From NCBI RefSeq assembly GCF_009765865.1, contig NZ_LMUQ01000052.1:107284-156853 (forward strand): DNA of 49,570 bases, read 5' to 3'. Origin of the DNA: Acidisoma sp. L85. Lineage in GTDB: Bacteria; Pseudomonadota; Alphaproteobacteria; Acetobacterales; Acetobacteraceae. This document shows positions 3,139-48,200 of the stretch, in pieces. The notes under the pieces are model-generated. The model did not search any database and was not told the origin of the DNA. It worked only from the letters and a program-made list of their open reading frames with translations. How positions within the stretch are numbered: position 1 is the first letter of the stretch; each line of letters opens with the position of its first letter. The position numbers were made by a program, and so were the translations under genes.

Positions 3139-3669
3139 TCAGCGCCGGACAGCCGCCATCGCGATGGTCGTCGGCGCTGCGGGCCGGTCGGACCGAGCCG
3201 CCGCGGCCTCCGCCAGAATGGCGCGGCGGGTGGCCGACTGGGCCGCGAGGCTGTGCTGTCCGAGCAGCGACGCCCGTCCGGCTTTCGCCAGTTCGAGCCT
3301 ACGGGCGGGTTGCCGGATGAGCTTTGAAAGCGCGTGGAACCAGGCCGCCTCGTCGGCTGCCAGCAAGGTGCCCGGCAAAGCGGTGCCATCTGCCGCCTGG
3401 TAGGCCGGCATGTCGGAGGCGACGGTTGCAAGGCCCAGGGCTCCGTAGTCCAGCAGCTTTATCGACGATTTGCAGCGGTTAAAGTCATTGTCGGCGAGCG
3501 GTGCTATTCCGATTGCCCAAGGCCGCTGCGACTGCTGCGCCGTCAGCCAGGCGACGAAAGCCGGGTAGGAAAGCCCGGCCCGGTGCGGCACCTCCGCCCG
3601 CTTGACGAAGGGCGGCAGATCGACCGCACCGACGATGCCGACGAGTTCGATGGAGATTTGCTCCGCATT
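3139..3669 (-). pseudogene. C-terminal fragment of the interrupted giant glycosyltransferase
   Basis: The open frame between TAA at 3670-3672 and TGA at 3139 has no good start. From codon AEQIS onward it continues exactly where the minus-strand gene at 45294-48521 stops being host sequence. The fragment carries the end of a GT4-type domain: IGIAPLADNDFNRCKSSIK followed by LLDYGALGLATVASD, the donor-binding E/D-x7-like region. From the shared 15-bp core to the stop is 171 codons, in frame with the upstream part, so excision of the element would restore one protein of about 1240 residues. It is not expected to be translated as it stands; a GTG at 3591 is possible but has no clear ribosome site. 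Confidence 0.9.
3652..3666. repeat. attL core (15-bp direct repeat)
   Basis: GGAGATTTGCTCCGC, identical to 45312-45326. On the minus strand it encodes AEQIS within the glycosyltransferase. On the element side it extends to CTCCGCAT, which pairs with the ATGCGGAG on the element side of attR. Confidence 0.92.
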
Positions 3670-3676
3670 TTACAGG

Positions 3677-3696
3677 TTCCAGGCTGTTCCAGGCTG
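3677..3696. repeat. Tandem 10-bp repeats beside attL, candidate integrase arm sites
   Basis: TTCCAGGCTG occurs twice in direct succession 11 bases inside the attL core. Tyrosine integrases with an N-terminal arm-binding domain bind short repeats near the core, so these are plausible arm-type sites. That role is inferred from position only. Confidence 0.5.
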
Positions 3697-3791
3697 TCCC
3701 AAATAATCCACCTAAGCCTTTGTAAAATCATCCGGTTACGTGCCAAAGTGTGTCACGCTGTTTCCTAGTGACGTGGCCGAAAGGGTATACT

Positions 3792-3823
3792 AAAGTGCAT
3801 ACGAATTGGAGCGTATACACTTT
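3792..3823. promoter_or_regulatory. Inverted repeat at the integrase start, candidate operator
   Basis: AAAGTGCATACG (3792-3803) and CGTATACACTTT (3812-3823) are inverted copies with 11 of 12 positions matching and an eight-base spacer. The right arm ends on the preferred TTG start of the integrase and the spacer holds its GGAG ribosome site. A protein bound here could block both transcription and translation of the integrase. Confidence 0.5.
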
Positions 3824-5009
3824 GTCACTTAATAAGCTCAGCGCCCTCAAGGTTAAGAACCTCACCACTCCCGGCATGCATAGCGACGGAGGCGGGCTCT
3901 ACTTCCATGTGCGCAGTCCGACCCAGCGGGCCTGGGTTTATCGATTTAAAAGGGATGGGCGCGAATATCGCATGGGCCTCGGCTCGGTCATCGACGTATC
4001 CCTACGCGAGGCTCGGGATGCCGCCGCAGAGGCCCGCAAGCTCAACCGGCAGGGTATCAATCCCATCGAGGCTAAGAAGACCCAGCGGCTCGCGGCGGAA
4101 GCCGAGCGGGGCACGCACACGTTCGAGCAGGTCGCCCGCCTGTATATCAAAGACAACGAAGCCGCGTGGCGCAATGCGTTGCATCGTAGCCAGTGGTCCA
4201 CGAGTCTAGAGGCCCACGTCTTCCCGGAAATTGGTAACTTGCCGGTGGCGGGCATCACGGTGACCGAAGTCCTGAAGGTTCTCCAACCGATATGGCCGGA
4301 AATCTCCGAAACCGCATCACGCATCCGGGGCAGGATCGAAACCATCCTCGACTATGCGAAGGCCCGTGGCTGGCGGAAGGGGGAAAACCCCGCCCAGTGG
4401 AAGGGCAATCTCGCCAGCATTCTACCCAAGCCTTCCAAGATCAAAGCCGTTCAACACCACCCGGCGTTACCCTGGAAGGACATGGCCCCCTTTATGGCCA
4501 GCGTGAGAGAAGAGGCAGGCACCCCGGCGCTCGCCTTGCGTTTCTTAATCCTGACCGCCGCCAGACTTGGAGAGGTGCTTGGCGCTACGTGGTCTGAGGT
4601 CGACCTGGAAGAACGGGTATGGACGATTCCGGCATCTAGGATGAAGGCAAAGCGCGAGCATCGCGTGCCCCTCTCTCCCCTAGCTGTGGCACTGCTACAG
4701 GAAATGGCCCAAGCGGGAACCGAGGCGGGCGCCTTCATATTCGGTGGCCGTAAACAAGGTCGGCCGCTCAGCAACATGGCCATACAAGAACTGTTACGAC
4801 GCATGGACCGTGGCGACATCACCGCCCATGGCTTCCGTAGTTCATTCCGTGACTGGGCCGCCGAGGCCACCGATTATCCCGCCGAAGTGGCCGAGATGGC
4901 GCTAGCGCATACTGTCGGGAACAAGGTTGAGGCTGCCTATCGGCGCGGCGACATGTTCGATAAGCGGCGCGGCATCATGGAGGACTGGGCGAAGCACTGC
5001 GGCGGCTGA
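3822..5009 (+). CDS. int: P4-type tyrosine integrase
   Basis: From the TTG at 3822 (GGAG ten bases upstream; NKLSALKVKNL then SDGGGLYFHV is the usual family opening) the protein has 395 residues. The frame stays open further upstream to 3750. An N-terminal DUF4102 arm-binding domain is followed by a core-binding domain (residues ~95-200) and a catalytic domain. The catalytic residues are visible: R248 (TAARLGE), the Lys in MKAKREHRV, H336 and R339 (HGFRSSFRDW), H363 (LAHTVGN) and Tyr373 (AAYRRGD). It should catalyse recombination between attP and the 15-bp core in the glycosyltransferase gene, as expected from its place next to attL. Confidence 0.93.
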   Translation: MSLNKLSALKVKNLTTPGMHSDGGGLYFHVRSPTQRAWVYRFKRDGREYRMGLGSVIDVSLREARDAAAEARKLNRQGINPIEAKKTQRLAAEAERGTHTFEQVARLYIKDNEAAWRNALHRSQWSTSLEAHVFPEIGNLPVAGITVTEVLKVLQPIWPEISETASRIRGRIETILDYAKARGWRKGENPAQWKGNLASILPKPSKIKAVQHHPALPWKDMAPFMASVREEAGTPALALRFLILTAARLGEVLGATWSEVDLEERVWTIPASRMKAKREHRVPLSPLAVALLQEMAQAGTEAGAFIFGGRKQGRPLSNMAIQELLRRMDRGDITAHGFRSSFRDWAAEATDYPAEVAEMALAHTVGNKVEAAYRRGDMFDKRRGIMEDWAKHCGG

Positions 5010-5488: not shown

Positions 5489-5668
5489 TTGGCACCTATA
5501 CGAAAGCCTAGCCCAGACTTGCCGCCGTCCAAAGTTCCGACGATCAAGAAGCGCATCAATCGAGGTGAGTTCCTGCACCGAATCGCGGCGGACTATGACG
5601 TTAACCCTGGCCGCATTTCAGAAATAAAGACTGGAAAGCGGTATCCGGAAATCCCCGCCGCTCCGTAG
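5489..5668 (+). CDS. Small helix-turn-helix protein
   Basis: A TTG start at 5489 follows a strong AGGAGG by five bases and opens a 59-residue frame. After a Pro/Lys-rich N-terminus it contains a helix-turn-helix-like segment: EFLHRIAADYDVNPGRISEI then KTGKRYPEIP, as in small phage and toxin-antitoxin DNA-binding proteins. It is the first gene of a plus-strand run that continues with the AbiV-like gene 77 bases later, so it may regulate that run. The exact family is not recognised. The non-ATG start and short length make it easy to miss. Confidence 0.6.
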   Translation: MAPIRKPSPDLPPSKVPTIKKRINRGEFLHRIAADYDVNPGRISEIKTGKRYPEIPAAP

Positions 5669-5745
5669 CGAATGCTGACCGGTGGGTGTCGAGACAATCG
5701 GCCCCACCGGATTACGGGTCAGCAAACAGCAAGGGGATTTAGGCG

Positions 5746-6489
5746 ATGAACACTGCCACTTACCAGGGAGCCGTATCGGCGTCACAAGCAGCAGCAGGGA
5801 TGAACGCTGCACTCCGCAATTCCCGGCGCTTGCTTGGAGACGCGGAACTACTTCTGTCAGCCGAGCGCTGGGCTTCAGCAGCGTCCCTGGCAGTGCTGGG
5901 ACTGGAAGAAGCTGGCAAGATGTCCGTCATCCGAGTCTTGTGCACCACGACGGAACCTGCCGCACTCAAGAAGCAATGGAAGGACTACCATCTCCATCAG
6001 GCAAAGATGGAAGGCCCTATAGGGTTTAACCCCGATGGCAAGGTGCTGACAGCGCCGAATGACTTGAAGGCAGCCATAGCGGAACGCACTAAGCTGATAA
6101 AGCAGATCGACAAGATTAAACAGAGCGGGCTCTACACCGATTGCTATCCTGATTCATTTGGCAAGCCTTATTGGGTCGAACCGGTGACTCAGGTCACGGA
6201 AGATGCAGCGCGAGATCTTGTAGCTATCTTGTCGAAGTTGCTTTCAGATAAACCTGACGTATCCGTGCGCGAGATGGAACTTTTTCACGAGTACATCAGC
6301 CCGGCACTCGATGATTTGGATAAAAGTAAGAGACTAGTGCGGTGGATGGTGGCAATGGAAGCCGAAGGGTTGATGTCTCGTGATGAAACCGAGAACAGGT
6401 TGCGTCGCTTCTATGACGGTATATTTGGGGAGGGATGGTACGACACGTTCAACCAAAACAAGCCCTCGCCGCCACGGGTAACGCCGTGA
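5746..6489 (+). CDS. AbiV-family abortive infection protein
   Basis: A 247-residue protein whose N-terminal ~60 residues match the AbiV family: NSRRLLGDAELLLSAERWAS, then ASLAVLGLEEAGKM, the conserved (A)xxLxxLxxEExGK helix. AbiV-type proteins carry a HEPN-like fold and were first described as lactococcal phage-resistance proteins. The C-terminal half is charged and helical with no recognised motif. The ATG follows AGGCG by five bases. A HEPN-like gene starts eight bases after the stop, so they are probably co-transcribed. An antiphage role is inferred from family and island context. Confidence 0.8.
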   Translation: MNTATYQGAVSASQAAAGMNAALRNSRRLLGDAELLLSAERWASAASLAVLGLEEAGKMSVIRVLCTTTEPAALKKQWKDYHLHQAKMEGPIGFNPDGKVLTAPNDLKAAIAERTKLIKQIDKIKQSGLYTDCYPDSFGKPYWVEPVTQVTEDAARDLVAILSKLLSDKPDVSVREMELFHEYISPALDDLDKSKRLVRWMVAMEAEGLMSRDETENRLRRFYDGIFGEGWYDTFNQNKPSPPRVTP

Positions 6490-6496
6490 GTATCTG

Positions 6497-7823: not shown

Positions 7824-7824
7824 A

Positions 7825-9689: not shown

Positions 9690-11957
9690 TCATGCTGCGT
9701 CTTGACCACCCCTCGCTACCGGAGATGCAATTTCGGTGGCCGCAAAAACCGCTATGGGCACCGGCTCAGTGCCCATCATCATGTGATAATGTGGCCCATG
9801 CCCGGTCGCTTCGAAAATGCGCCTGAAGACGCCGAGATTGGCGTCCACTGTGGCGGCATCACTGGAGACGTAGAGATCATCATGTGTGCTGTGCGAACCG
9901 TCATTCACCCATGAAAAGAGCGATGCGCAAATCACTTTATCACGGCCCTCAAACTTCTCGATGATCTTGTCCTTGTTCATGTTGCCGAGGATTTTGAAAT
10001 AGTTCTCCAGAATGCGGCGCAGCGTGTTCCGAATGGTGAGGTTGGAACGATTCTGGTTGCGCACCTCGGACCAGAGCAGCTCGTAGGATGTCTTGATCGG
10101 ATTGTGATCGAAGGATTCCAACGTCGAGACATCATCGATCTTCTTTACGATCCAGAATGTCTCGTGCGCGCGGCGCTCTCCCTTCCGGTCGGGGTCGAAC
10201 GACACCTCTTTATGGAAAAAAATGTTGTGGGTGAGCAGGAATACCTGGCGGATCAAGCTGTTTCGTGCGTGGCTCAGCTCGAACACTCGTTTGATCAGGC
10301 TGGAGACGATGAACAGGATATCGCTGTCTAGGCTCGAAACTGGATCGTCGAACACGATGACGCGGTTGCTCGTTATTCCGGATTCCGAAACGCTGCCGCG
10401 GATCAGATGGTAGAAATAAAGGAAGCTGACGAATGTCGTCTCACCCTCGCTCAGGGTCCTGACGGCATTGCTGCCGTCAAGACGGACGATCTCATACAGG
10501 CTCTCCTGGTCGCCCGCGGTGGCGAGCTTGAAGCCGCGAAAGCCGAATGACGCCAGCAGCGCATTGATCTCGGTTACGGTGGGCTGAACGCTCGTGATGC
10601 CCTTCTCGAGATCGCGCAGCGTTTGCCGCGCGATTGCAAGGTCACGACGCTTGGTTGTCAAGCTCATTTCGATGCCGCTGATTGCGGCGTCCACCGACTT
10701 CTTGCTGGCATGATAGGCATCGAGGGTGCTCTTGGCCTCTTCCAGCAGAAACCTCCAGATCTCGGCAGTGAGCATCGTCTTTTGATTGCCGATATCATTG
10801 ACGGCCCGGTTGTGTTCGGTAACAGCTGTGTTCGCAGCCTTGAGAAATTCCCCCACCTCGGCGAATAGGTCGGTGTTGTCTTCCACCGTGATGACAGCGC
10901 TCGGCTCTTTCTGCTTTCGAGCGATATGTTGCCCATTGAGCGCCAGGCGCGCGGTCACACGCTCCACAAGTCCGACTAGTTGATCCACATCAATGTAGCG
11001 TGACCCGTCCTGCAAGATGCTCATGAGCGCTTGGAGGTAGGCTGCGCTCGCCGCCTCATATCCTGCAACGAGACGCGCGATATCCGTGATGTCGCGATCG
11101 TAGGCTTCGTCGAAATAATCGCCGATGCGCTTCGCGAGATCGGCGTCGACATCCTGCTGGCAGAATGGGCACTGCGGCGTGCTTTGTTCGAAATAGCTGA
11201 CGCCTTGCTTGATCCAATCACTGTTGCCGAGGCGGTCGATCAGACCGGCGATATCGAAATCGCCCCGACCGACGACCTTTTTCGTCAGGATTGGCAACGC
11301 CTGCAGGCGGAGCAGCTCGGCACTCTCGGGCACACGAACCGTGTTTTCGCGCGCAAGCCCCTTTTCGAAGATGATGGCGACACGTTTCTTCAAGTCATAG
11401 AGCGGAAGAACCCGAGCCTGATTGGAAGCCCATTCGCTCAGGATTCTGTTGCAGAAGCTCGCCTTAGTGCCGCGTACGCCTGTGAAGGCGGACTGAAAAT
11501 CGGCATCATGGCGGTTTCTCAGCTTCCAACATTCGTTCTCGATATTCTCCCGCAACGTCGACCGCTCCCCGAGCTTGCCGCTCGCACCATCGCCTCCACC
11601 GAGCGAGGATTTGCGTGAGGTGATATCGCGCTCGATATCTAGAACCTCGCTTCGCGCCTGCTCGATCTGATCCTGCACGGTCGCGTCGTGCTCGCCCAGC
11701 GTGAAGATGCCGGGCAAGCTGGACCGGAAATTGCGCTCCACGAAGTCGGCATTATAAATGAGGCACTCGAGAGGCTGTTGATTGGCCCAGTGGATCGCGC
11801 AGGCTGGATGATCTTCGGGGGAGGCGATCACGCGTGAGATGCTGGTCTTTCCTGAGCCGTTCGCGCCGTAGATGAAGTTGATCTTGCGAAGCTGGCCAAG
11901 ACTCTGGCCTTCCGCGCTGTAGCTAGCGCATCCGGCGATTTTTATTCCTTCAATCAA
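9690..11957 (-). CDS. AAA_13-family ATPase, probable defense protein
   Basis: An SMC/RecN-like ATPase of 755 residues from the TTG at 11957 (GAGGGG upstream; IEGIKIAGCASYS is the usual family start). A GTG at 12005 would add 16 residues. Numbered from the GTG: Walker A GANGSGKT at 47-54, a CPFC zinc-hook-like motif near 279 within a coiled-coil region, the ABC signature LSEGE near 518, and Walker B VIVFDDPVSSLD near 549. A LLTHNIFF segment and an FSWVNDGSH element follow. The family includes RloC-like tRNA nucleases and other antiphage ATPases. No anticodon-nuclease motif could be confirmed. It stands alone between two serine-hydrolase copies. Confidence 0.85.
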   Translation of the reverse strand: MIEGIKIAGCASYSAEGQSLGQLRKINFIYGANGSGKTSISRVIASPEDHPACAIHWANQQPLECLIYNADFVERNFRSSLPGIFTLGEHDATVQDQIEQARSEVLDIERDITSRKSSLGGGDGASGKLGERSTLRENIENECWKLRNRHDADFQSAFTGVRGTKASFCNRILSEWASNQARVLPLYDLKKRVAIIFEKGLARENTVRVPESAELLRLQALPILTKKVVGRGDFDIAGLIDRLGNSDWIKQGVSYFEQSTPQCPFCQQDVDADLAKRIGDYFDEAYDRDITDIARLVAGYEAASAAYLQALMSILQDGSRYIDVDQLVGLVERVTARLALNGQHIARKQKEPSAVITVEDNTDLFAEVGEFLKAANTAVTEHNRAVNDIGNQKTMLTAEIWRFLLEEAKSTLDAYHASKKSVDAAISGIEMSLTTKRRDLAIARQTLRDLEKGITSVQPTVTEINALLASFGFRGFKLATAGDQESLYEIVRLDGSNAVRTLSEGETTFVSFLYFYHLIRGSVSESGITSNRVIVFDDPVSSLDSDILFIVSSLIKRVFELSHARNSLIRQVFLLTHNIFFHKEVSFDPDRKGERRAHETFWIVKKIDDVSTLESFDHNPIKTSYELLWSEVRNQNRSNLTIRNTLRRILENYFKILGNMNKDKIIEKFEGRDKVICASLFSWVNDGSHSTHDDLYVSSDAATVDANLGVFRRIFEATGHGPHYHMMMGTEPVPIAVFAATEIASPVARGGQDAA

Positions 11958-12493
11958 CGCAACCCCCTCTTTGCCACCTCCTTGCCTTGGTTGAGTGGCA
12001 GACACACAAAATACCTTCAGCTCCTATCGTTGGGCAAGGCTGGGCGAACGGTCACAGCAGTCTTTCACAGCAGTATGCTGTTTCCAGAGGCGTGCGATGG
12101 TCGATCTGGCGATTGGCACTGATAACGCATTCCGGTCGGCGTGAACCGGCTATTGATCTCGCCGACGTAAAAGCGAGGGCGCCGGAACCCCGGGACACGA
12201 AATTGGCCCGAGAACGGTCGCAGTTGGTCGGAAGGTGCCAGTAAAATCCAGGGCCAGCCATGTCCTCTCTCTCTCTATATTTGGCCCAAGGGCGGTCTGT
12301 CCGCTGTCGGCCCATGTCAAACATAGGCGGCGTTTCGTCCAATCTCGTAGGTGGGTCGAAAGCCGCCTGTCAGTCTGCAAACGAGGAACTTGGTTTGCAG
12401 CCTAACCTGGCCGGGTTCGAATGGCAGGGTGAGGAGTGCGCTTTTGTCCTGAAAATCGAAGCCCGGCAGGCCGGTCGCCTAGCCTGGTAACTA
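11958..12493. other. Non-coding region upstream of the AAA_13 gene
   Basis: About 540 bases without a convincing gene, RNA or repeat. It must contain the promoter of the minus-strand AAA_13 gene, but no clear -35/-10 pair could be chosen. Confidence 0.4.
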
Positions 12494-13389
12494 TTAGACG
12501 CCCACGCGAAGCGCAACGGATAACACTTCCCATTCCGCCACCCCTTCGTCCACGCTATCCGTGAAGCTCGCCACGGTTACCGGAGAAGCAAGGTTGGGAA
12601 AATGATAGACAGCGTTGACGCTATGCGGGCCGCGTCCGAGTGTCCAATGGCGGTGCCAGCCTCACCCATTCGTCCGGACATGACGCCAAGGCCATATGCG
12701 CAGACGGTCCAAGGCCTGCCGGGGATGGCGCCTCCCAGCTCATGCCGTTCCAGCATCTCGTCCAGGGACTCCGAGTTCAGGATCGACCCGGAAAAGAGGG
12801 CGTGGAGCAGCTTGGCCGCGTCCACCGTGGCGCCGATCAAGCACCCGTGGTAGACCCATCCAGGATGATAAAGCCTCAGAGCAGGCCAGAACACATCCGA
12901 CATATCGCTTGGCGTGACCGCGAGACGAACCGAGGAAAGTTCCAACGGCGCTATGACCAACTCCCGCAGAGCCGTCGCGAGCGGAAGGCCCGTCGCTTCC
13001 TCAATTATCTCTCGAACAAAGAGATAGCCGACGTTACTGTATGCCCACCCGGTTCCGGGCACGAAATCAAGCCGATCGCGCCCGACAGCTGCCAGCAAGT
13101 GCTCGCGTGACCATGGCGGGTCACTGTGGGCCACGGCGTCGTGGTAGGCCTTCAATGAGCCGTAGTTCGGCACACCTGCGTGATGTTGCAGAAGCTGCCG
13201 AAGCGTGTAGGGCTTGCCCGGTCGAAGCGCATCTAGCTGGAGGCGTCCGTCATCGACCAAGCGAAGGGTGCACAGGGCCAGCACAGTCTTGGTGAAACTC
13301 CACCACGGGAAGAGGGATGAGACCGATCCCTCGGAACCAACCAAACCATCGGCGGCGATCCACGCGGAATGAAAACTGGGCGTCCTCAT
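12494..13389 (-). pseudogene. Serine hydrolase (beta-lactamase fold) with C-terminal frameshift
   Basis: From ATG 13389 the frame encodes a class C beta-lactamase-like hydrolase. The nucleophile motif is SFTK near residue 25 and the YSN motif lies in WAYSNVGYLF. In the reading frame, GHSD is followed by unrelated sequence and a stop at 12577. Adding one base near 12635 gives GHSGRGPHSVNAVYHFPN and then a tail ending at TAA 12494. That tail matches the orphan copy at 9270-9386. The total length of 896 bases is one short of 299 codons, as expected for a one-base deletion. The product probably lacks the third active-site motif; a sequencing error is the alternative. Confidence 0.8.
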
Positions 13390-13543
13390 GTGAAGATGAT
13401 CGCGTCTAACGCCCGGTAGATCAATGTTCAACGTCCAAGGGAAGTGCTTCGAGCGCAGCGCAGACGAGGTGTGGCCACTTGCGCGAGTGGCGGCTGGGGC
13501 CGAATGGTATCGGCCGTCACCCAGCTTAATAGAAGGCATCCAA

Positions 13544-14404
13544 ATGTCACTAGCTGATCTATTCCAGCGACGCCTCCCGCTCAATCGCAAGGAAGTATAT
13601 TACACTGCGACCGTACTTCCTTGCATTATTTGCGCGGACGACTTTGCGCATTTTCATCGTCTCTGGCCGTTGCTAGGCATCGATGCGCCCCCGACCAGCG
13701 TGGCGCCGCATTCGACGAACATTCAATTCTTGACCGAATATAATTTCAGGGATTCGATCTATTCCGAACTGCATAGGGAACGCTTTTCCGAGGAGCTTTC
13801 AGGCGACACACCCGACATACTGATCCTGGTCGACGGACCTTCGCCTCTAATGGTCAGCATTGAGGCGAAGATGTACGACACGATCAGTGCCGGCAACCTG
13901 ATCGCCCAACTGAGGCGGCAGCGTGAGAGAGTCCTGCAGCCGATTATGAAAGCGTTTCCAGGGATGCGGCTGTTTCAAGTAGCTTTGCTCCCGGCAGGGA
14001 TACCGATCGAGCCGGATGCGCTCGCATCAGTGAAGCTGCTGCACTGGCAGCAAATCCTGGCCGCGTTTGAAGATATCGGGAGCGCGTCATATTTCCTGGG
14101 CGTGCTTCGCCTGGCACTAGAAAGCTACGAGGCTTTGCGAAACGAAAGGTTAATCTTCGGAGCCAACAAGGAGGCATCCATGACGGGTGGCGAGATCCTT
14201 AAGCATCATACCGACGGTACCCTTGAGTTCAGAACTATGGGGCGCTTGGGCGGTATCAGCGGGATACGTTTAGCACATGATCTAGCCACGGGCCGCTGGC
14301 GCGAGCAGCTTTACGAGCTGAGCATACGGGAGGAGGGGCTCACCAACTGGTTTGCCGTCGAAGACTTCGTTTCGCAGGTTCGCATGGTCCGCTCGGACGT
14401 ATGA
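13544..14404 (+). CDS. PD-(D/E)XK nuclease-like protein
   Basis: The ATG at 13544 follows GAAGG and gives 286 residues; the frame stays open upstream to 13424 without a better start. Residues ~80-125 carry a nuclease-like core: EELSGDTPDILILV (P-D), then LMVSIEAKMYDTISAG with E-A-K. The N-terminal segment KEVYYTATVLPCIIC precedes it, and a Glu in the helix before the core would complete the fold. The C-terminal ~100 residues are a separate unrecognised domain (HHTDGTLEFRTMGRLGGISG). It is a single gene in the island, divergent from the broken serine hydrolase. Nuclease activity is inferred from the motif. Confidence 0.65.
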   Translation: MSLADLFQRRLPLNRKEVYYTATVLPCIICADDFAHFHRLWPLLGIDAPPTSVAPHSTNIQFLTEYNFRDSIYSELHRERFSEELSGDTPDILILVDGPSPLMVSIEAKMYDTISAGNLIAQLRRQRERVLQPIMKAFPGMRLFQVALLPAGIPIEPDALASVKLLHWQQILAAFEDIGSASYFLGVLRLALESYEALRNERLIFGANKEASMTGGEILKHHTDGTLEFRTMGRLGGISGIRLAHDLATGRWREQLYELSIREEGLTNWFAVEDFVSQVRMVRSDV

Positions 14405-14921
14405 GGAACGCAGGCCGAACACATTTGACCGTAACTCTGGATATTGCAAACCTGCTCCCGTTAAGAAGGGCGAGGCAATGCGTACAGTTATCACAGCTAG
14501 GGGGGGACTATCCGCGGACGGGTTGTTGGCCACACCCATTGCGAACGAGCCCCTCCCACTGCCTACGCCGTAACCCCGGAGAGCGAGTGATCACCAGTTT
14601 TTAGGACCGTGGATCGAGTTCGAAGCCGCACTTGCCGCCAGTTTCCGGGCGTCCGCGTCCATCCCAGAGAGGGTGAGGGAGAAGAATGAATTGGACATTC
14701 GAGCGTGCGGCAGGTGGCTCGCCACTTGCTTTCCGCTTCGTGACTTTAGCACTCCGAGGCCCGACTGCGGGCAGTTCGCCTCCGCGAGTGTTCGAAGCCG
14801 ATGGCGTTCATCCTGACCATGGGCGTACCACTAATGCAGGATTGCAACAGTCTTAGTTTTGGTGTAGCAATCAACAATTAAGCCAGCGTATATTGATGGC
14901 CAGCGGCCTGTGGGAACTATT
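14405..14921. other. Non-coding region
   Basis: About 515 bases with no supportable gene. Short frames here lack ribosome sites and recognisable content. The last ~100 bases are AT-rich and probably hold the promoter of the HsdR-N-like gene. Confidence 0.4.
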
Positions 14922-16136
14922 ATGTCTCCTGACCTAGAAGATTTTAAGCTGCGCATGCTCGCACATGCAAAACTGGTTGCCAGTCGGGCTCCCAAAGTAG
15001 AGTCCGAGGCAAGCACCAATGCCTCCCTTGTCCAACCGTTCCTGACGACTCTCGGATATGACGTCTCGAATCCCGATGAGGTATCGCCGGAGCATCATGC
15101 CGATTTCTCCGAGAAATATCAAAATAAGGTCGACTATGCGATCCTACATCTAGGAAAGCCGGTCATAGCTATTGAATCGAAGCGCGTTGGCGCTGCAATG
15201 AGGGATGATCGAGGTCAGCTGCGCAGTTACTTTAATGCCTCTCCGACCGTTAAGCTTGGCATTCTGACTGACGGACTAAAATACGAGCTTTACGCGGACT
15301 CAGATAAGCCAAACATGATGGACGAAGTCGCTTTTCTGCGGCTGGATCTCTCGGAAATCGCTAAGTCTGGAACAGTTGATGATATAACGCTGGAGGGAAT
15401 TTCAGCGATCCGCAGCGGGCTGTTTAACCCAGAAGACGTGGGCGCGGAAGCAAAGCGAAAACTGCTGTTTGAATCAATAGTGCAGTTGATTAAGCAATTC
15501 AAAACTAAGCCGTCGGACGACTTCATACGGTTCGTGCTCGATCGCACTGAAATGGGTAGCAAGCTCAGTAAGATTACCCAGAAGATTGTCGACGCTAACC
15601 GAGATATTGTGCAATTGGCGATGGAAGCCTTTGTAGCGCGAGAGGCGCTTGCAAGGCTAGGCTTCGCACCGAAGGACGTTGTTCGTGCTCCCCCTGACCA
15701 TCACGAGCAAGCATCGGGCACAAGCGAACAACTCGCAGTGCCGGTGGCTGACGGTGGAACGCTCGCGCCAACAGAAGGTGAGGTTCGGGCACTCACCTAC
15801 GTTAAGAACAGACTCTACTACCTTGTTCGTAACGATGTACTTTTTGGGGAAATCGACAAGATTGCTTATCGTAAATCGAAGACATCGTTCCGAGTATATT
15901 ATGACAGACCGAATAGCGGATCACTGTTCGACTACCGGGAGCGTAAGGACGGTGAGGCCGTTCTGCAGTTTCCTGGTCTGGCAGTCGAAGATGTTCCCTT
16001 CGGAATCTCTCCGGCCCTAGATGATTTTCTTCTCAGGGCGTTTACCAAACGCGTCGGCGACGCCGGTGTTTCATTTGAGACACAGCCTCTCCTCAGGGCA
16101 ATCAAAGGTGGGCAGTCGGCTGCCGCGGATGCATAG
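14922..16136 (+). CDS. Stand-alone HsdR N-terminal-like nuclease
   Basis: A 404-residue protein from ATG 14922; a GTG at 14910 would add four residues. The first ~160 residues match the type I restriction R-subunit N-terminal family (HSDR_N_2): SEASTNASLVQPFLTTLGYD, then KVDYAILHLGKPVIAIESKR, with D and E-x-K forming the nuclease core. Next comes the TVKLGILTDGLKYELYAD strand pair typical of this family. There is no helicase domain and no hsdM or hsdS beside it, so it is not a type I restriction enzyme. The C-terminal ~130 residues form an unrecognised domain. A stand-alone effector role is inferred. Confidence 0.78.
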   Translation: MSPDLEDFKLRMLAHAKLVASRAPKVESEASTNASLVQPFLTTLGYDVSNPDEVSPEHHADFSEKYQNKVDYAILHLGKPVIAIESKRVGAAMRDDRGQLRSYFNASPTVKLGILTDGLKYELYADSDKPNMMDEVAFLRLDLSEIAKSGTVDDITLEGISAIRSGLFNPEDVGAEAKRKLLFESIVQLIKQFKTKPSDDFIRFVLDRTEMGSKLSKITQKIVDANRDIVQLAMEAFVAREALARLGFAPKDVVRAPPDHHEQASGTSEQLAVPVADGGTLAPTEGEVRALTYVKNRLYYLVRNDVLFGEIDKIAYRKSKTSFRVYYDRPNSGSLFDYRERKDGEAVLQFPGLAVEDVPFGISPALDDFLLRAFTKRVGDAGVSFETQPLLRAIKGGQSAAADA

Positions 16137-23338: not shown

Positions 23339-23341
23339 CGA

Positions 23342-30199: not shown

Positions 30200-31291
30200 G
30201 TGGCCGATTTCTTCGAGATCGATTTTCTAGAAGTTCACACAGCCAAAAGTGGCGACGCAATTGGAATTAGATATGAAGTGGGTGGCAGTCTTTGCATTCA
30301 CGTGGTGGATGGAGGCTATCAGGCAACGGGCGAAAAGCTTGTTGCGCACATCAATCAGTTCTACGACAGACCAGCCTTTATAGACCACGTCGTAGTGACG
30401 CATCCCGATCAAGATCATGCAGAGGGCTTGCAGGCAGTTATTGAGAGTTTTGCAATTGGGACTCTCTGGATGCTGCTGCCTTGGAACTATGTTGATGAGT
30501 TGCTCCCTAGATTTTCCTATAGCAATCCGGAAAATCTGAAGAGACGACTACGTGAGGCATATCCTTATCTTGCGGAGTTGGAGAAGATCGCGAACCGCAG
30601 GGGTATCAAAATTTGTGAACCCCTACAGGGAGTCAGAATAGGCGAATTCACAGTCTTATCTCCCACTCGGGCACGATACCTGAACTTGGTGGCTTCATCT
30701 GCCAAAACGCCGGAGGAGACGGCTCACGACAATATGCTAGTGCGCGCCAGTCAGTTCGTCTTCGATGCCGCGAGGGCCACAACAGCGTTCATTCGAGCCT
30801 CCTGGGGGCTTGAAGTGTTTCCCCAAGATGGTACGAGCAACGAGAATGAGATGAGCGTTGTACAGTTCGCACGTCTTTGCAATCAGACCATCGTATTAAC
30901 TGCCGACACCGGTAGGGATGGGCTGACCGAAGCCGCCAACTATGCACCTGCTGTTGGCTTAACACTCCCCGGAGGCGTGAACCGTTTTCAGGTCCCGCAT
31001 CACGGCGGGCGCCATAACGTATCGACGGAAATCCTTGACCGCTGGTTTGGAGAGCGCCTGCTGAGCCCTCCGGCCTCAGGATTGGAAAGCTTCACAGCGA
31101 TTGTAAGCGCGGCAGAAGAGGACGAACAGCATCCGCGCAAGGTGGTAAAGCGGGCGTTCATACATCGGGGTGCAAAGCTCATCTCAACCGATGACGGCAG
31201 GGGCACCACGCGCACGGGCCACAACGCACCTGCCCGAGCCGGCTGGAGCGCAGCGATCCCGGTAGCTTACCCCGAAGACATGGAAGAATAG
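30200..31291 (+). CDS. ComEC-like MBL-fold hydrolase of a two-gene module
   Basis: A 363-residue protein from GTG 30200 (GGAAGGA upstream). It has a metallo-beta-lactamase fold of the ComEC/Rec2 type: VVDGGYQATGEKLV near residue 36, the metal motif HPDQDH at 68-73 (THPDQDHAEGL), TADTGRDG near 234, and VPHHGGRHN with His267-268. There is no membrane part in the protein itself. Related MBL domains cut nucleic acids or other phosphodiesters. A membrane protein starts seven bases after its stop, so the two genes form an operon. A hydrolase/membrane-effector defense pair is a reasonable inference from the setting. Confidence 0.78.
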   Translation: MADFFEIDFLEVHTAKSGDAIGIRYEVGGSLCIHVVDGGYQATGEKLVAHINQFYDRPAFIDHVVVTHPDQDHAEGLQAVIESFAIGTLWMLLPWNYVDELLPRFSYSNPENLKRRLREAYPYLAELEKIANRRGIKICEPLQGVRIGEFTVLSPTRARYLNLVASSAKTPEETAHDNMLVRASQFVFDAARATTAFIRASWGLEVFPQDGTSNENEMSVVQFARLCNQTIVLTADTGRDGLTEAANYAPAVGLTLPGGVNRFQVPHHGGRHNVSTEILDRWFGERLLSPPASGLESFTAIVSAAEEDEQHPRKVVKRAFIHRGAKLISTDDGRGTTRTGHNAPARAGWSAAIPVAYPEDMEE

Positions 31292-36287: not shown

Positions 36288-37007
36288 TCAGCCCTCAGCC
36301 TCCACACGCAAGAGCACGCGACGCACTGCGGTAGCGGTCCACATACTGCCACGAGGCGTAGCAATGCCTCGCCGTGTCAGTTCATCAGCGATGGTCTGTA
36401 GGCTGATGTCTGCACCCATTTCTGCACGTATCTCACGGATGGAGAGCACCACATTGTATGCATGTTGATTGGCAACAGCAGTGCGGGCCTCGGCGGAAGC
36501 CTTAGGACCAGCCTCGCGACCTGCGAAGCCTACGGGGCGATAGCCTCTATCACCACCAAGCTTGACACCACGGGCCTTAGCAGCAGCGAGAGCAATCTTC
36601 GTGCGGGTGCTTATCATACGCCTCTCTTGCTCGGCCAACGCGGCGTAGATGTGCAGCATGAAAGGATCCGCGTGGGGGCCGAGGTCGCAAACGAGAAAGG
36701 GCACGCCCCGCGACATTAGAGAAGAGATGAAGGCCACATCACGGGAGAGCCTATCCAACTTGGCGACCACTACCGCACAGCCGAGGCGTTTGGCGTGGGC
36801 AAGGCTAGCAGCAAGCTTCGGGCGACGTTCAATGGCGTCTGTCCCCTTGGCTGACTGCACCTCGACATACTCTGCCGCGACAGTCAAACCCTCTGCCGCA
36901 CAGAAGCGGGCGATTGCCTCACGCTGGCCCTCTAGCCCCAGGCCAGACTTGCCTTGACGGTCCGTCGAGACCCGGAGGTAAGAAACGAAACTGCGGGTCT
37001 GCAACAT
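36288..37007 (-). CDS. Small serine recombinase (resolvase/invertase type)
   Basis: A 239-residue recombinase. The catalytic domain has Ser14 in [36 protein letters not shown] with the catalytic Arg residues, and the helix segment [20 protein letters not shown]. The C-terminus ends in a helix-turn-helix ([19 protein letters not shown], then [10 protein letters not shown]). It is distinct from the larger serine recombinase at 24213. In a replicating element a resolvase may resolve multimers; inversion of a segment is the alternative. No res or inversion site was identified. Confidence 0.88.
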
Positions 37008-41278: not shown

Positions 41279-44173
41279 ATGAACGCCTCTCATAACACAC
41301 GAACCCCCGATCTGTCAAGCGTACGGGGCGAGAATTCCACCGGTCCCGCAATCGACGTGGATTACAACGACTACCGCGCCCTACAAGCGCACAAGCGAGC
41401 CATTATCAAGGCCGCTGCTCATCTTCTGCCACACATGCCGGCCGTTAACTGGCTTTGCTGGGGTTGGAAGAAGGACAGGAACACTGGCAAGCCTGGCAAG
41501 GTTCCGATGTTCGGATCGACGTCCAAGAACGTTGAGTCATGGCTCACCCTCGAACAGGCTGTGAAACGCATCGGTGAAACCGATCCGTACGGCAATGTCC
41601 TGTGTGTGGGTGTGGGCTATGTAGTTGTTGAGGGTATCATTAGTCTCGATCTTGACGATTGCATCGATGCCGAGACGGGCGAGATACACCCGCCCATCCA
41701 AGCAGAACTCGACAAACTGCCGAAGACTTTCACCTATAAGACGGTTAGCAAAACCGGTCTCCGCGTCGTTGGCACGGATTTATGTGGAGTGGTTACCGGT
41801 GGCAAGCGAACCTGCTACTTCCCGTCTGGCCACACGATCGAAATCTACGTGGGTCCGTGCACATTTTTTAACACGTTTAGTCCTACCGTCCTGCCAGGCC
41901 GCGATCTACCTGTCGCTGATCTTGGTTTCCAAACTCTGCGATATCTAACCGAGTTAGCCAACGATAAGGGTGTCATAGGCGGTGCCGCCGCCGTGCACGA
42001 GTATGACGGCGATGGGGCTGATTTATCCGACGAGTCGGGGGATTTATCGTCAACAACCGATATCCTGCACGCACTGGCGACCATCGTAAATCACCCGACG
42101 ATGCAGTATCCCGATTGGAACAGAATTGGCGGTGCCATATTCAACGCTACAGGTGGGAGTGCCGAAGGTCTGGCGGCTTGGGACGCATGGTCGAAAGGCC
42201 ATCCCAAGTACGCAGAGGGCACTTGCGCAGGGTGCTGGAACACCTTCAAGAACACGTCACCTTACGACAAGCTAAAGACGAACTTCGGTTCGTTGGTAAA
42301 CATGGCACGGGAAGTAGATCCGACATGGCGTGCACCAAGCTGGAATGCTAACAAGGATAACGAACCCCGCACGGAGGCGACGGATGACTTCGGCTTTACG
42401 GAGTCCACCACATCAGCGGACAATGACAATCCTGAAGCGGAAGGGTCTAGCGAGAAAGACACCGGAACCGAAACGCCGAACGGCAAGAAATCCAAGGGCA
42501 AGAAGACCAAGTACTCCGAAGGTTCCGAGCCTAACACTGAGTCCGCTCCCTATAGCGAAGCCCTACAGCGTGCCATCGATAAAGCACCGCACAAACCAGT
42601 GGTCCAGCTGCGGACCGGAGAGTATCCAGCAGCTGCAACTGCGGGTGAGCGTGCTATTATCCGTTCAACGGCACAGATCTTCCAACGTGGACAGGATATC
42701 GTTCGTCCTTGTTCGGAAGAGGTACCCGCTGCGCACAACCGCACGACTAAGACCGCTTCCCTGCATGCTCTGACATCTACCGCGATGGCTGACACTTTGG
42801 ACCAAGTAGCTTTCTGGGGTCGGTACGATGGACGGTCGAAAACCATCGCTCGTGTTGACGCCCCGAAGAAGGTCGGTGACACCATATTGAGTCGCGTAGG
42901 CATGTGGGCGTTGCCGAAGCTCAAAGGCATCATCACGTGCCCAACCATTCGACTAGATGGCACCTTGTTGTCGTCACCTGGGTATGACGCCGCTACTCAT
43001 CTCTACCATGAGAAAGACAGCAGCATTAGGCTTACCGACACGGTGTACAATCCCACTCGTGCTCATGCAGAGGCTGCGCTAGCACTGCTAGAAAACCTCA
43101 TCAGCGGATTCCCGTTCACGTCAGAGGTAGGCAAGGCTGTAGCGTTGTCGGCGATCGTAACCGCGCTGGTTCGCGGCACGATGGGTTGCGCCCCTCTTCA
43201 CGTGTTCCGAGCCAGCACACCTGGCACGGGCAAGAGCTACCTCGCGGATGTAGTTAGCGCGATTGCCACAGGTTGCGAGTGTCCCGTCATAGGGGCCAGC
43301 AGCGAGAAGGCTGAGAGTGAGAAGCGCTTAACAAGCATACTCCTTGCAGGTTACCCGATTTGCAGTTTGGACAATGTAAACGGTGAACTTGGAGGCGACT
43401 TGCTATGCCAGGCAATCGAACGCCCCATCGTGTCGCTTCGGATTATGGGGAAGACGGAAGTTGTCAAGGTTGAAAGCACCACGATGATGCTTGCGACCGG
43501 TAACAATCTACGTGTGCACGGCGATATGGTTCGAAGAGCCATCATTGGTGACCTGGATGCCAACATGGAACGCCCCGAACTGCGGGACTTCAAGTTTTAC
43601 CCCGTATCGGAAGTGGCCGAGAACCGTGGCCTGTACGTCAGTGCCGCCCTTACAATCGTCCGCGCCTACATTCTCGAAGGGCGGCCGAAGGTGCTGAAGC
43701 CACGGATCGGGTCTTTCGAGGATTGGTCGGATAACGTCAGAAGCGCGCTGGTTTGGTTGGGATGCGCGGACCCGGCTATCAGCATGGAGATGGCCCGTGA
43801 CGATGATCCCGAATTAGAAGGTATTCGCGAAGTGATGGATAATTGGCGCCTTACCCTGGGAACCGATGAAGGCTTTACCTCGAAGGATGCCATCGACACC
43901 GCTGATGAGATGGTGAAGTCCGATAACGGGATACTTGAAGGCCATAAGCATCCAGAGTGGCGGGAGTGCCTACTCAAGATTGCGGGGGAGCGTGGTCGTA
44001 TAGACGTGCGCCTTCTGGGCAACTGGCTGAGAGACAATGCCGGCAGAATTGTAGAGGGTCATCGCTTCCATAAGATTGGCACCAATCAGAGATCAGCGGT
44101 CTGGCAACTCAAGAAGGCTAAGCCCGCAGCCGACAACGTGGTCAACATAAGCGACTATCAAAACGTCGCTTAA
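41279..44173 (+). CDS. Primase-polymerase/helicase replication protein
   Basis: A 964-residue replication protein. The N-terminal AEP-like prim-pol region has motif I LDLDDC near residues 122-128, VSKTGLRVVG near 158 and the third motif IEIY near 187, as in NrS-1-type phage polymerases. A PriCT_2-like region follows at ~260-350 (WNRIGGAIFNATGG, then AWDAWSKGHPKY). After an acidic Ser/Lys-rich linker comes an AAA+/SF3-like helicase with Walker A PGTGKSYLAD near 647 and Walker B-like CSLDNVNGE near 696. It should recognise, unwind and prime the iteron origin upstream. It is the main evidence that the element replicates autonomously. Confidence 0.88.
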   Translation: MNASHNTRTPDLSSVRGENSTGPAIDVDYNDYRALQAHKRAIIKAAAHLLPHMPAVNWLCWGWKKDRNTGKPGKVPMFGSTSKNVESWLTLEQAVKRIGETDPYGNVLCVGVGYVVVEGIISLDLDDCIDAETGEIHPPIQAELDKLPKTFTYKTVSKTGLRVVGTDLCGVVTGGKRTCYFPSGHTIEIYVGPCTFFNTFSPTVLPGRDLPVADLGFQTLRYLTELANDKGVIGGAAAVHEYDGDGADLSDESGDLSSTTDILHALATIVNHPTMQYPDWNRIGGAIFNATGGSAEGLAAWDAWSKGHPKYAEGTCAGCWNTFKNTSPYDKLKTNFGSLVNMAREVDPTWRAPSWNANKDNEPRTEATDDFGFTESTTSADNDNPEAEGSSEKDTGTETPNGKKSKGKKTKYSEGSEPNTESAPYSEALQRAIDKAPHKPVVQLRTGEYPAAATAGERAIIRSTAQIFQRGQDIVRPCSEEVPAAHNRTTKTASLHALTSTAMADTLDQVAFWGRYDGRSKTIARVDAPKKVGDTILSRVGMWALPKLKGIITCPTIRLDGTLLSSPGYDAATHLYHEKDSSIRLTDTVYNPTRAHAEAALALLENLISGFPFTSEVGKAVALSAIVTALVRGTMGCAPLHVFRASTPGTGKSYLADVVSAIATGCECPVIGASSEKAESEKRLTSILLAGYPICSLDNVNGELGGDLLCQAIERPIVSLRIMGKTEVVKVESTTMMLATGNNLRVHGDMVRRAIIGDLDANMERPELRDFKFYPVSEVAENRGLYVSAALTIVRAYILEGRPKVLKPRIGSFEDWSDNVRSALVWLGCADPAISMEMARDDDPELEGIREVMDNWRLTLGTDEGFTSKDAIDTADEMVKSDNGILEGHKHPEWRECLLKIAGERGRIDVRLLGNWLRDNAGRIVEGHRFHKIGTNQRSAVWQLKKAKPAADNVVNISDYQNVA

Positions 44174-44222
44174 TCTCATCAATTTCCAATCTTATTCTAT
44201 CAATTATATCTAGAAGCTTTCA

Positions 44223-44393: not shown

Positions 44394-44542
44394 AAGATTC
44401 TTCACCACGCGGCGATCACTAGACTTGACAGAGTATAGAAGCTTTATGCTTGTTCAATTTACACCAAGGCGTCTCACAAGATGCCAGGGCGTTTCAACCC
44501 GATACCTTTCACAACACTCTTTTTTCTCACTGGAATAATTCA

Positions 44543-45004
44543 ATGCCTACCTTACAACATCTCGAACACATCATTGAAGGTGTCTTCAAAACTACGATTA
44601 ACCGCATGCCCGGCTACAAGAGCGCCGCACTCGCAATGCGCGATAAAGACGGTGTGTTCCACCAGATCGCGGAATTCTTGCATTATGAAGATGACGGCCT
44701 CGATGAAGAGGCGATGGTAGATGAGCTTTGCGCCGTTATCGGTTACGTGCACGAGCGTATGGCCGAGGACGGTTTCTCAGTCGTCTCCCAGGATTACCTT
44801 CCGATTCTACGGAAGAAGGTTTTCGGCTTTCGAATGGTCGACATGACCGAGCGCATGGGCACCGCGAGCGAGATGGCCGAACGCCTCGCCATTCGCTTCA
44901 ACGATGCCGAGCCGGAATTCACATTCTGGAGGCGTGCGGCACCCCCCGCGCATATCGCCGCTACCACCGCCCGCGCCGAGCTGGTGGAGTGGATGACGCA
45001 ATGA
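44543..45004 (+). CDS. Hypothetical protein coupled to the excisionase-like gene
   Basis: A 153-residue protein from ATG 44543; the open frame reaches back to 44450, but the upstream residues look non-coding. It is acidic and helical: LEHIIEGVFKTTINRMPGYK near the start and DEEAMVDELCAVIGYVHERM in the middle. No catalytic motif is visible. Its TGA overlaps the ATG of the AlpA-like gene (ATGA), which suggests translational coupling and a shared role in maintenance or excision. I do not recognise the family. Confidence 0.6.
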   Translation: MPTLQHLEHIIEGVFKTTINRMPGYKSAALAMRDKDGVFHQIAEFLHYEDDGLDEEAMVDELCAVIGYVHERMAEDGFSVVSQDYLPILRKKVFGFRMVDMTERMGTASEMAERLAIRFNDAEPEFTFWRRAAPPAHIAATTARAELVEWMTQ

Positions 45005-45216
45005 CCGCCGCCGACAACATTAAGCCGACGCTTCTAACTCTTGCCGATGCCGCCATCGCGTCACGTGTTAGCCGCTCCACCCTCTACCGTCTCCTCGGCA
45101 AAGGGACGCTCAAAGCCAAGAAGTTGGGCAGCAGGACCCTCATCACAGCCGAGAGCCTGAATTTCTTTCTCGATAGCTTGCAGGACGCTACCTTCCAGTC
45201 ACCGACCGTCCACTAG
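45001..45216 (+). CDS. AlpA/excisionase-like helix-turn-helix protein
   Basis: A 71-residue protein of the MerR-like AlpA/Xis group: LTLADAAIASRVSRSTLYRL then LGKGTLKAKKLGSRTLITA, the usual helix-turn-helix plus wing of small excisionases (HTH_17). It is the last gene before attR and, on the circular form, would lie next to attP and the integrase. This fits a role in directing excision or activating int, as AlpA does in P4-like elements. The start overlaps the preceding stop. Excision function is inferred from family and position. Confidence 0.8.
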   Translation: MTAADNIKPTLLTLADAAIASRVSRSTLYRLLGKGTLKAKKLGSRTLITAESLNFFLDSLQDATFQSPTVH

Positions 45217-45293
45217 CGCAGCTGGTCTCTGGTGTATACGGCGGGGGATACAAGCCCGGAACTTGAGACTCTAAAACTAGCGATATCAAGATA

Positions 45294-48200
45294 TTATACG
45301 CCATTCCATGCGGAGATTTGCTCCGCGAAGGTCGCCTTCAGCCGCCCGAGGGCGGGCAGGATGAGGCCGAGATCCGCGCCATGCGTCGCCGTTCCCATGT
45401 AGAGAATGCGCGTGACGCGGCCGGTGACGCCCGCCGCCGCGAAACTCGGGCCGCCCTCCGCATGCTCGGGCGACGGCGCTGTGGACCATAGCCGCTCGTC
45501 GAGCCCGTTCGGCACGATGACAAGGGCGCCGGGCCGCGCCACCTGAGCCAGCCGGGACGCGAGTTCTGACGTCGAAACTTGCACTCCGTCGGCGCCCCTC
45601 ACCAGCGTCTCAACCACCAAGGCCTTCGGTGCCAGGCGATTGATTTCGCTGTGTTCCAGCGGCAAGTTCAGCAGGTCGTCGTCGAGATCGAAGAGAAGTT
45701 TTCCGCCACTTTCCCGCACGTGCGCGATCAAAGACTTGGCGGCCCGGGGATCCGGCACGGCATAGCGCTGCGTCACGATGAGGTCGGCGGTCAGGCCCAG
45801 CGCCTCGTCGGCGGTCGCCAGCGTGATGTCGATGCCCTCCCCGGCTTGCGGATGGGCGAGCGGCAATAGCGTGCGGATATAGGTGCAGGGGCTGAGGAGA
45901 TCGCCTTCGTCCAGCCGCTCCGGCACCAGGATGACGGCGGTGCGTCCGGGTCGCCGTAAATCCTGCACCCCGGGCCTCGACCCACGCCGTCGCGGCTGGC
46001 TTGGCTGGGTCTTGAAAGGTAACAAATAAGAGGCCGGATAAAACTGAGCCACCTGAGGCACGGGCGGGATCGTGGGCGCGGTCCGCGACTTCGCAGCTGT
46101 GAAGAGGCCTGCGCTCCATTCCTCCGCGTTTGCGCCAGGATGCAGAAGCAGGGCCTCTGGATAGGTTGCGAGCCGCTCTCGGAAGGCGCCGAGATCTGTC
46201 GCCACGATTGGCCGGCCTGAGGCGATGGCCGCCGTCAAAGTGAGGCTCCAGGTCTCGGGCCAGGGCGCGGGAAACCAGATCACCTGCGGATCAAGCCGCG
46301 CGATCAGAGCGGGGAGCGCCTTTGGCCTGTAACGGCCGGTCTCCGCGATGAGGTGGGCGAAGTGCCTGGCCAGAGGCCGCTCGGCCTCGCCTATGAGGGT
46401 GATCGCCAGGCTGCCGGGCGGTGACCGCTCCGCCACTTCCATGACGAGCGGAGCGCCCTTGTGGTCGGCGAGCATGCCGAGAATTGCGACTCTCACCGGT
46501 GCCTCCGGCCGAGAGGATACCGACGCTGTCTGGCGCGCCGCCGGAACCGGCGCCAACTCCAAGGGTGCGATTACCGCGCGGTCCGCGAGGCCGTAGCGAT
46601 CGAGGCGGCGCCGCGTGTCCTCCGTGCCGCAGAAGACGCGGTCCGCGAGACGGAACAACCAGGCGGTTTCGGAACGCCACGCCGAGATGTCATGCGCTTC
46701 GGTCGGCTCGCCCTGGTGGAGGCAGGCGTTGCAGACTTCCGGCCCCGGCTCCCCACAGTAGATAGCGTCCCGCCTCGGTAGCAGATTGACGCGCGGGCAG
46801 ATCGCGAACCAGTCATGCACCGTCACGTCGAACGGCACAGCAAGCACGGCGATCATTCGCCGGAGGTTGAGGCCCAAACCGCGCCAATGGTGGACGTGCA
46901 CCCGCGCTATCCCGACGTGCCGCAGCAGGCGAAAGATGGTTGCTTCGAGGTTTTTCGCGGGCAGGGTAATCTCAGGGTGGCCGACAGCGGCGGGTGCGCC
47001 GAGACGAAGACCTGGGCTTTCCAGGATGGAGCTGAGTAGCAGGATATTCGCCTGTCCGACGCAGGCTTCCGCCAGGTCGCGGATGTGTTGTCCGACCCCG
47101 CCGTCATGGGCGTGTTTGACCATCAGGATGGTAGGGAGACCGTTGGTGGCGAAGAATTGCAGCGTCGTTGCAAGGCGAAACGGGGCACCCTCGTCCAAGC
47201 GGATATGCACCGCAACGAGGGGGCGATAGCTCGGCCAGCGCCGGTCGAGCAGATCGGCGTTGCCCGAGAGTTCCGGCGCCCCGGCACCGAAACTCACGCT
47301 GCCGGCGTGATAGACAAAAATATCGCAGGCGAGGCGATGCTGCCACCCCGCCGCGGACGCCCGCATGCAATAGTCACTCTCCTCGCCATAGCCACGCCCG
47401 AAGGTGTCGGCATCGAAAAGGCCCAGCTCCGCATAAGCGTCGCCGCGCAGATAGAGGCAAAAACCGACTGTCGTGGGAACGCGGATTGACCGGCCCGCAT
47501 TCGCCTTGCGACAGGCTGCATCGATGCTGGCGAGGCTCGCGCCGAATGGAATGGGGCCGCCATCGATCGCCGGATAGGAACAAATTGTCGCGTTGTTCGA
47601 AAATGGCGAAACCGTCGCGACATTAGGATGCGCATAGGCGTGTGCGGCGAGACGCTGCAACCAGCCGGACGGCACCTCGGTATCGCTGTTGAGCAGCACA
47701 ACATCTCGCGCGCCGGCATGCTGTATGCCGCGATTGACGCTGGCAACGAAACCGAGATTGCGCTCGTTCTTGATCAGCGTGATCAGGCCGCGTGTGGCGA
47801 GGCGCCGCAGATAACGCGACAGGCGTGGTTCTGGCGAGGCATCATCGACCACCACGATGCGGAGTGCGGGATGGTCGGCATCGACTCCGGCGACACTTTG
47901 AGGGTCGCGCAGAAGGCTATGCAGGCAGCGGCGAGTGTCCTCAAAACCGCGAAAGACGGGGATGACGATATCGACGGCGAGATCACGCGGAGAGCGCGGC
48001 GGGGCAGTCTTGGCAGGCAAGCAGTTTTCAACGTCGAAGTGCCGCTCGGTCGGCAGTCCCAAAGCACGCCCGATCGCAAGGTGGAAAAGTAGGGGGTTGG
48101 GCGCCGACTCAGGTATTTGCGCAACGTAAAAGAGGGGATCGAAGCGTGGATGCGGTTGGCGCATCTCTTGGGCGCCGAAGCGCGCGTAATGCTGCAACGG

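Follow-up and report, generated by a model that had tools for sequence, protein, structure and literature searches.

Mobile elements that split a gene and restore it on leaving are already known. Candidates for what is called regulated gene integrity were reportedly described by Mageeney et al. in 2020. In Bacillus, SP-beta splits the polysaccharide-synthesis gene spsM, and its precise excision rebuilds the frame, as excerpts of the report describe (PMC4191935). Islands with P4-type integrases, Vibrio pathogenicity island 2 (VPI-2) for example, are described at tRNA-Ser in part of PMC3014918, while for Salmonella genomic island 1 (SGI1) part of PMC2297512 reports that a second site is used and sets out inverted repeats and, as a proposal, an overlap of 7 bp. 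Here, we examined 49,570 bp of the genome of Acidisoma sp. L85 (contig NZ_LMUQ01000052.1, positions 107,284 to 156,853; hereafter the window), in which an island of 41,660 bp, core to core, interrupts a glycosyltransferase gene. It is quite probable that this is an integrative island from a clade of P4-type integrases that mostly uses tRNA-Ser, that its overlap has changed, and that it landed in the coding sequence of a three-module glycosyltransferase gene, truncating the third module in a way that is reversible in principle. The splitting and restoring of genes by islands is no novelty, and it is the change of target that is well readable here. No description of this island was found in titles or in the beginnings of abstracts.

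The island is bounded by a 15-bp direct repeat, GGAGATTTGCTCCGC, which occurs on the + strand at 3652-3666 and 45312-45326 and divides the gene as follows.

3652..3666, + strand: attL core, 15-bp direct repeat (repeat search)
45312..45326, + strand: attR core, 15-bp direct repeat (repeat search)
45312..48521, - strand: N part of the interrupted glycosyltransferase gene, which starts with GTG, has 1070 codons and continues in frame to the stop at 45294 (open reading frame, Pfam)
3139..3651, - strand: C part of the same gene, past the core, with 170 codons plus the stop and a C-terminal stretch that is GT4-like (joined frame; Pfam below cut-off)

No third copy of the 15-mer was found in the window with up to two mismatches allowed, and the shuffle control gave a mean of 0.11 copies, with two copies reached in 0 of 100 shuffles. 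The complete genome (6,376,414 bases, 85 contigs) contains exactly two copies, and therefore the assembly holds no separate contig for an empty site or a circular form. When the flanks were joined at the core by script, they gave one open frame of 1240 residues, in which the GTG at 48521 opens a run of 1070 codons that reaches 45312 and is followed by 170 codons and a stop (3141-3139). In the integrated state, the frame of the N part continues for five codons past the core. The G+C content of the island is 56.2%, as compared with 63.6% in the window flanks.

We used the N part as a query against 60 related genomes, found a match in 41 of them, and examined the eight best-scoring loci. Both halves are contiguous and in frame in all eight, including those of the same-genus genomes (4/4), which rules out two separate genes in place of one split gene; in one of these loci, L011, a stretch within the N part is missing, away from the break. 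The 15-mer is absent at the break position from all eight, and none of them is interrupted or carries the core, so that reuse of this gene site by islands was not seen among them. The break falls in a variable, helix-like stretch, which reads AEQIS in the split gene and differs in the related loci. Comparing the split gene with six related loci, the identity of the C part minus that of the N part ranged from +6.5 to -4.2 points, and between pairs of unsplit loci the same difference ranged from +5.2 to -5.6 points. By this measure the C part appears undecayed and conserved as well as the N part, which argues that the insertion is young or the frame still useful. The gene that follows the C part, DOPA-dioxygenase-like by eye, also adjoins the unsplit gene in locus L004, with 72% identity; it was seen in one of the six loci tested, the other five having short flanks.

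Taken together, these results bear out what a preliminary description of this stretch observed and part of what it proposed. The positions it gave for the 15-bp repeat, one copy in each half of the gene at the ends of a 41.66-kb element, were confirmed, as were the 1070 codons of the first half, and the 171 codons that it let follow proved to be 170 codons plus the stop. Its proposal that a tyrosine-integrase element splits a once-continuous glycosyltransferase gene is borne out by the integrase domains, the joined frame and the unsplit loci; two separate genes in relatives, or the lack of any unsplit homologue, which it had named as refuting the proposal, were looked for and not found in the eight loci.

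The attachment sites can be read base by base. The elements concerned, together with the genes that would act on them, are these.

45308..45315, + strand: attP inverted repeat, left arm, ATGCGGAG, at attR on the side of the element (sequence reading)
3661..3668, + strand: attP inverted repeat, right arm, CTCCGCAT, at attL on the side of the element (sequence reading)
3676..3695, + strand: tandem of two copies of GTTCCAGGCT, adjoining attL (sequence reading)
3750..5009, + strand: P4-type tyrosine integrase with Arm-DNA-bind_3, Phage_int_M and Phage_integrase domains (Pfam; the true start may be further in)
45001..45216, + strand: small HTH_17 (AlpA-like) gene, 71 residues, candidate excision factor (PF12728, 33.5 bits against a cut-off of 27; phrog_66, 9e-6)

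The arms of the element's site form a perfect inverted repeat, which can be read as 8+5+8 bp or as 7 bp, a 7-bp overlap GATTTGC and 7 bp, giving attP = ATGCGGA-GATTTGC-TCCGCAT. The gene site, CGATGGA-GATTTGC-TCCGCGA, has the same overlap, and its half-site TCCGCGA is one base off the tRNA-Ser half-site TCCGCCA. The layout in the integrase relatives is TGGCGGA, a 7-bp overlap and TCCGCC. Tyrosine integrases require matching overlaps more than any fixed overlap sequence. The genome has four tRNA-Ser genes, and GATTTGC is absent from the 3' ends of all of them; since the overlap matches none of these, we read the element as a relative with a changed overlap; the overlap would thus have changed rather than been ancestral to this lineage. 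The window contains no tRNA gene, and the stretch in it that comes closest to the 3' end of a tRNA-Ser gene shows four mismatches. The 12-mer GATTTGCTCCGC occurs three times genome-wide, in the two cores and once on a contig without a tRNA match. The tandem copies of GTTCCAGGCT are possible arm-type integrase sites. All three P4-type domains of the integrase score above their Pfam cut-offs, and its open reading frame (ORF) starts 84 bp past attL; the match of the HTH_17 protein to phrog_66 (excisionase and regulator) is weak. Both proteins are presumably active.

We then have a candidate course of events. The overlap of a clade member would have changed, and a coding gene with one good half-site would thereby have become a target; the P4-type tyrosine integrase would have recombined attP with this gene site, which offered the same 7-bp overlap and a clade-like half-site. 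The site attP contains no replacement for the 3' part of the gene, unlike in a tRNA-type insertion, and the enzyme would therefore be truncated within its third module as long as the island is present. Because both halves appear undecayed, precise excision would restore the frame.

The site preference of the clade was assessed with 82 integrase relatives, of which 69 came from among the family-search matches listed (29 with loci and 40 hand-picked further down the list), 11 from the class search, and one each from genome_contigs and viral_contigs. Upstream DNA was readable in 81; L165, with too little of it, was left out. We scored a relative as tRNA-Ser if an intact gene for this tRNA ended no more than 320 bp from the integrase match, or if a 14-mer in that range had at most two mismatches to a tRNA-Ser 3' end, the reference 3' ends being drawn from the genome itself and the same relatives, and a base shuffle of 40 upstream stretches serving as control. 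A tRNA-Ser gene or 3'-end match lies upstream in 61 of the 81 relatives: an intact gene in 21, and a 3'-end match in 40 more, 37 of these with no more than one mismatch. Shuffled stretches matched within two mismatches in 2 of 40 cases and within one in none of the 40. The preliminary description had remarked that the site is not a tRNA gene, the usual target of tyrosine integrases, and these counts sharpen that remark. A sibling island of 18.5 kb lies within tRNA-Ser(GGA) in the same-genus genome G003 (L198-L199, C1:424669-443141); its integrase, which has one internal TGA, is 47% identical to that of the window, and its primase 52% over 499 residues. The closest integrases were 55% identical among 299 family genomes, 56% among 385 class genomes and 49% in the one genome_contigs match, and elsewhere 52% on plasmids, 46% in phages and 46% in one viral contig.

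Several observations weigh against this account. Twenty of the 81 readable relatives are not at tRNA-Ser under the rule; the clade is thus not exclusive to tRNA-Ser, and this is a real limit on the name "tRNA-Ser clade". By eye, the far ends of L123, L047 and L124 resemble the 3' part of other tRNA genes, and L053 (L170-L171, G085 C54) is an island of 12,056 bp that has a repeat of 17 bp and lies outside any tRNA gene, between two ORFs and near an ORF start. In the integrase tree, the rows nearest by path are labelled tRNA-Ser, and no well-supported set holds the window's row; these labels were set by hand before the rule-based test, and at least L040 and L062, with three mismatches, count as "other" by the rule. 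Furthermore, the searches of the family genomes, the class genomes and the viral contigs revealed neither a donor nor a primary site that has this overlap, and the overlap may therefore have changed on arrival or have matched the gene for a long time.

Other origins of the site were considered in the course of these searches. An occupied primary site that forced a secondary insertion is not supported by the surroundings of the genome's own tRNA-Ser genes or by its integrase matches: by eye, no integrase-like ORF lies within about 1 kb downstream of the four tRNA-Ser genes, which leaves room for more distant islands, and with E values up to 1e-80 the only integrase match in the genome is the one in the window, 6 of the 14 first-look candidates having been scored. 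Another tRNA as the original target was likewise set aside, a strict tRNA 3'-end pattern with the GATTTGC overlap matching in 0 of 385 class genomes. The 21-mer of attP, with at most two mismatches, occurs in two of 397 family genomes, namely at attR in the genome itself and at one site in G315. This latter copy (L207, C1:2653274) has two mismatches and belongs to another genus. In a search for other carriers, a 17-mer was present in six viral contigs, and on our own estimate about that many may be due to chance. A further relative, L163 (G442 C1), shows an attP-like repeat with a different overlap, GACGAAG; no second island end was found for it in the 60 kb read.

As for what the cut removes, in Pfam the N part matches GT2 and also GT4, the latter together with its C-terminal partner, and the cut falls in a third, GT4-like module. 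The truncated product would keep two modules, with GT2 and the first GT4 whole, and since the cut spares both, what results may be an altered enzyme and not the loss of one. A role of this enzyme in surface polysaccharide is a guess of the preliminary description. The loss of the end of a GT4-type domain, as had been proposed, is weakly supported: the PF13524 and PF13692 matches of the C part are below their cut-offs, the third module is likewise below them in the unsplit relatives, and the last third of L004 matched nothing when searched against the PDB. By eye, ORFs beside the split gene (48915-49568 on the + strand of the window; G000 C73:157660) resemble RTX-type surface proteins, and one of them has the N-terminal repeat region of the glycosyltransferase in common with it.

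What the insertion means for the host admits more than one reading. Stable disruption has a chance a little short of even: the ectopic insertion would no longer excise at a useful frequency and would be tolerated through the host's other multi-module glycosyltransferases. The non-conserved insertion site fits such a history, as do further matches to the split protein in its own genome, for example one of 36% over residues 184-802 at C73:35843, although the exact repeats, the intact integrase frame and the apparently undecayed C part point to an insertion that is recent or still reversible. The preliminary description suggested instead that the element may turn surface sugars, and phage sensitivity with them, on and off. 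As a regulated and reversible switch, conditional excision would restore the glycosyltransferase and thereby alter both. The exact repeats, the undecayed halves, the open integrase frame and the candidate excision gene would suit this idea, and SP-beta in spsM provides a parallel (excerpts of PMC4191935). An attP that does not replace the gene end is, according to part of PMC10111431, an exceptional pattern usually taken as regulated gene integrity, and at this locus a protein gene is indeed split, unsplit in relatives and restored in frame at the repeat. Restoration of the frame on excision is to be expected of every island whose repeats recombine cleanly. Against a switch, the site is not conserved, the eight related loci being uninterrupted and a single insertion of this type having been seen; the assembly contains no excised form; and the function of the gene is known from domain matches alone. 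We thus consider a switch unsupported and unlikely, and the disruption of the gene seems incidental rather than regulated.

That the split is an assembly chimera, or two neighbouring genes mimicking one split gene, is hardly credible. The genome is a draft in 85 contigs, but both junctions lie within a single contig, C73, of 433,717 bases, which contains the whole window; the gene is whole in the eight related loci, its downstream neighbour recurs beside the unsplit gene in L004, and the base composition shifts across the island ends. A bolder idea is that the island joins two layers of phage resistance, its carried defence genes and a truncated surface glycosyltransferase that possibly builds a phage receptor, so that excision would trade defences for glycan in a population holding both states, the integrase having left tRNA-Ser by a change of the 7-bp overlap alone. 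We regard this as distinctly improbable. If such an overlap-only escape from tRNA-Ser were true, a single step would bring further coding genes within the clade's reach.

The reading that we prefer, an island of a mostly tRNA-Ser-using clade in a coding gene, leaves the cargo to be described. The remaining annotated genes of the island are as follows.

41279..44173, + strand: PriCT_2 primase-like replication protein, 964 aa (Pfam, PHROGs)
5746..6489, + strand: AbiV-like HEPN protein (PF18728, 94 bits; PADLOC AbiV weak, 7.7e-4)
9690..12005, - strand: AAA_13 ATPase, candidate defence protein PDC-S06 (Pfam, PADLOC)
12577..13590, - strand: serine beta-lactamase-fold (PF00144) protein, cargo (Pfam)
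14910..16136, + strand: protein with HSDR_N domain, type I restriction R-subunit N-terminal (Pfam)
16470..21173, - strand: DUF4011 / helicase / MTES_1575 nuclease-like protein, PDC-S37 (Pfam, PADLOC)
22445..25784, - strand: serine recombinase and two RepB/ParB-like genes, cargo (Pfam)
30200..31291, + strand: metallo-beta-lactamase (MBL)-fold protein, candidate PDC-M48B (PADLOC)
33115..35643, - strand: 842-aa protein with transglycosylase (SLT) domain (Pfam; weak tail-fibre PHROG, 3.1e-6)
36288..37007, - strand: second, short serine recombinase (Pfam)

The primase gene adjoins the HTH_17 gene at the right island end. Relatives of its product were found in 45 of the 299 family genomes (the own genome included), mostly matching its C-terminal half, and the primase query found none in the viral contigs. 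The PDC names denote candidate, untested defence genes; the PDC-S37 protein resembles the anti-phage proteins Hhe and ProA, both NCBIfam scores being under their cut-offs. Several of the cargo genes are likely anti-phage genes. No capsid, portal, terminase, tail or relaxase family had a Pfam match in the 28 island ORFs scanned, shorter or unlisted ORFs lying outside the scan, and PHROGs, run on 10 island ORFs, gave one weak tail-fibre match, beside the SLT domain. From these matches the element appears to be an island of non-phage type whose cargo is rich in defence genes. At 22445..25784, the serine recombinase gene and the pair of RepB/ParB-like genes lie together as a compact set of three within the island, and the short serine recombinase, of 239 aa, has only the beginning of a Recombinase domain.

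The locus thus provides a clean natural example in which an integrase, probably of a clade that mostly uses tRNA-Ser, is found in a coding gene. With att sites legible base by base and a same-genus sibling in tRNA-Ser, the step from a harmless tRNA site to one that disrupts a gene is testable and, if excision occurs, one more putative surface-glycan gene would join the short list of those whose integrity hangs on a mobile element. In comparison with SP-beta, which is a prophage whose sporulation-linked excision was shown by experiment (excerpts of PMC4191935), the present island likewise splits a putative glycan gene, but has a P4-type tyrosine integrase and no phage structural genes in the Pfam-scanned ORFs. 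With the cases of regulated gene integrity, as part of PMC10111431 presents them, it shares the position in a protein gene and an attP without replacement sequence; its own site is not conserved, and we claim neither regulation nor benefit for it. An integrase clade of phage-inducible chromosomal islands (PICIs), according to the same source (PMC10111431, in part), targets prophage late genes, with some members in tRNA-Phe, so that there too close integrases lie at a tRNA or a coding gene; that clade is a different one, and its sites recur, whereas this site was seen once. SGI1 is alike in being a tyrosine-integrase island that reaches a second site through inverted repeats and a proposed 7-bp overlap, but that site is intergenic and was laboratory-selected through deletion of the first, as described in part of PMC2297512. 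The tRNA-Ser islands with P4-type integrases, such as VPI-2 (PMC3014918, in part), resemble it in att layout and island character and probably in integrase clade, and it differs from them in that its target is a coding sequence, which the island does not restore, and in that its overlap, GATTTGC, is not of the tRNA-Ser type.

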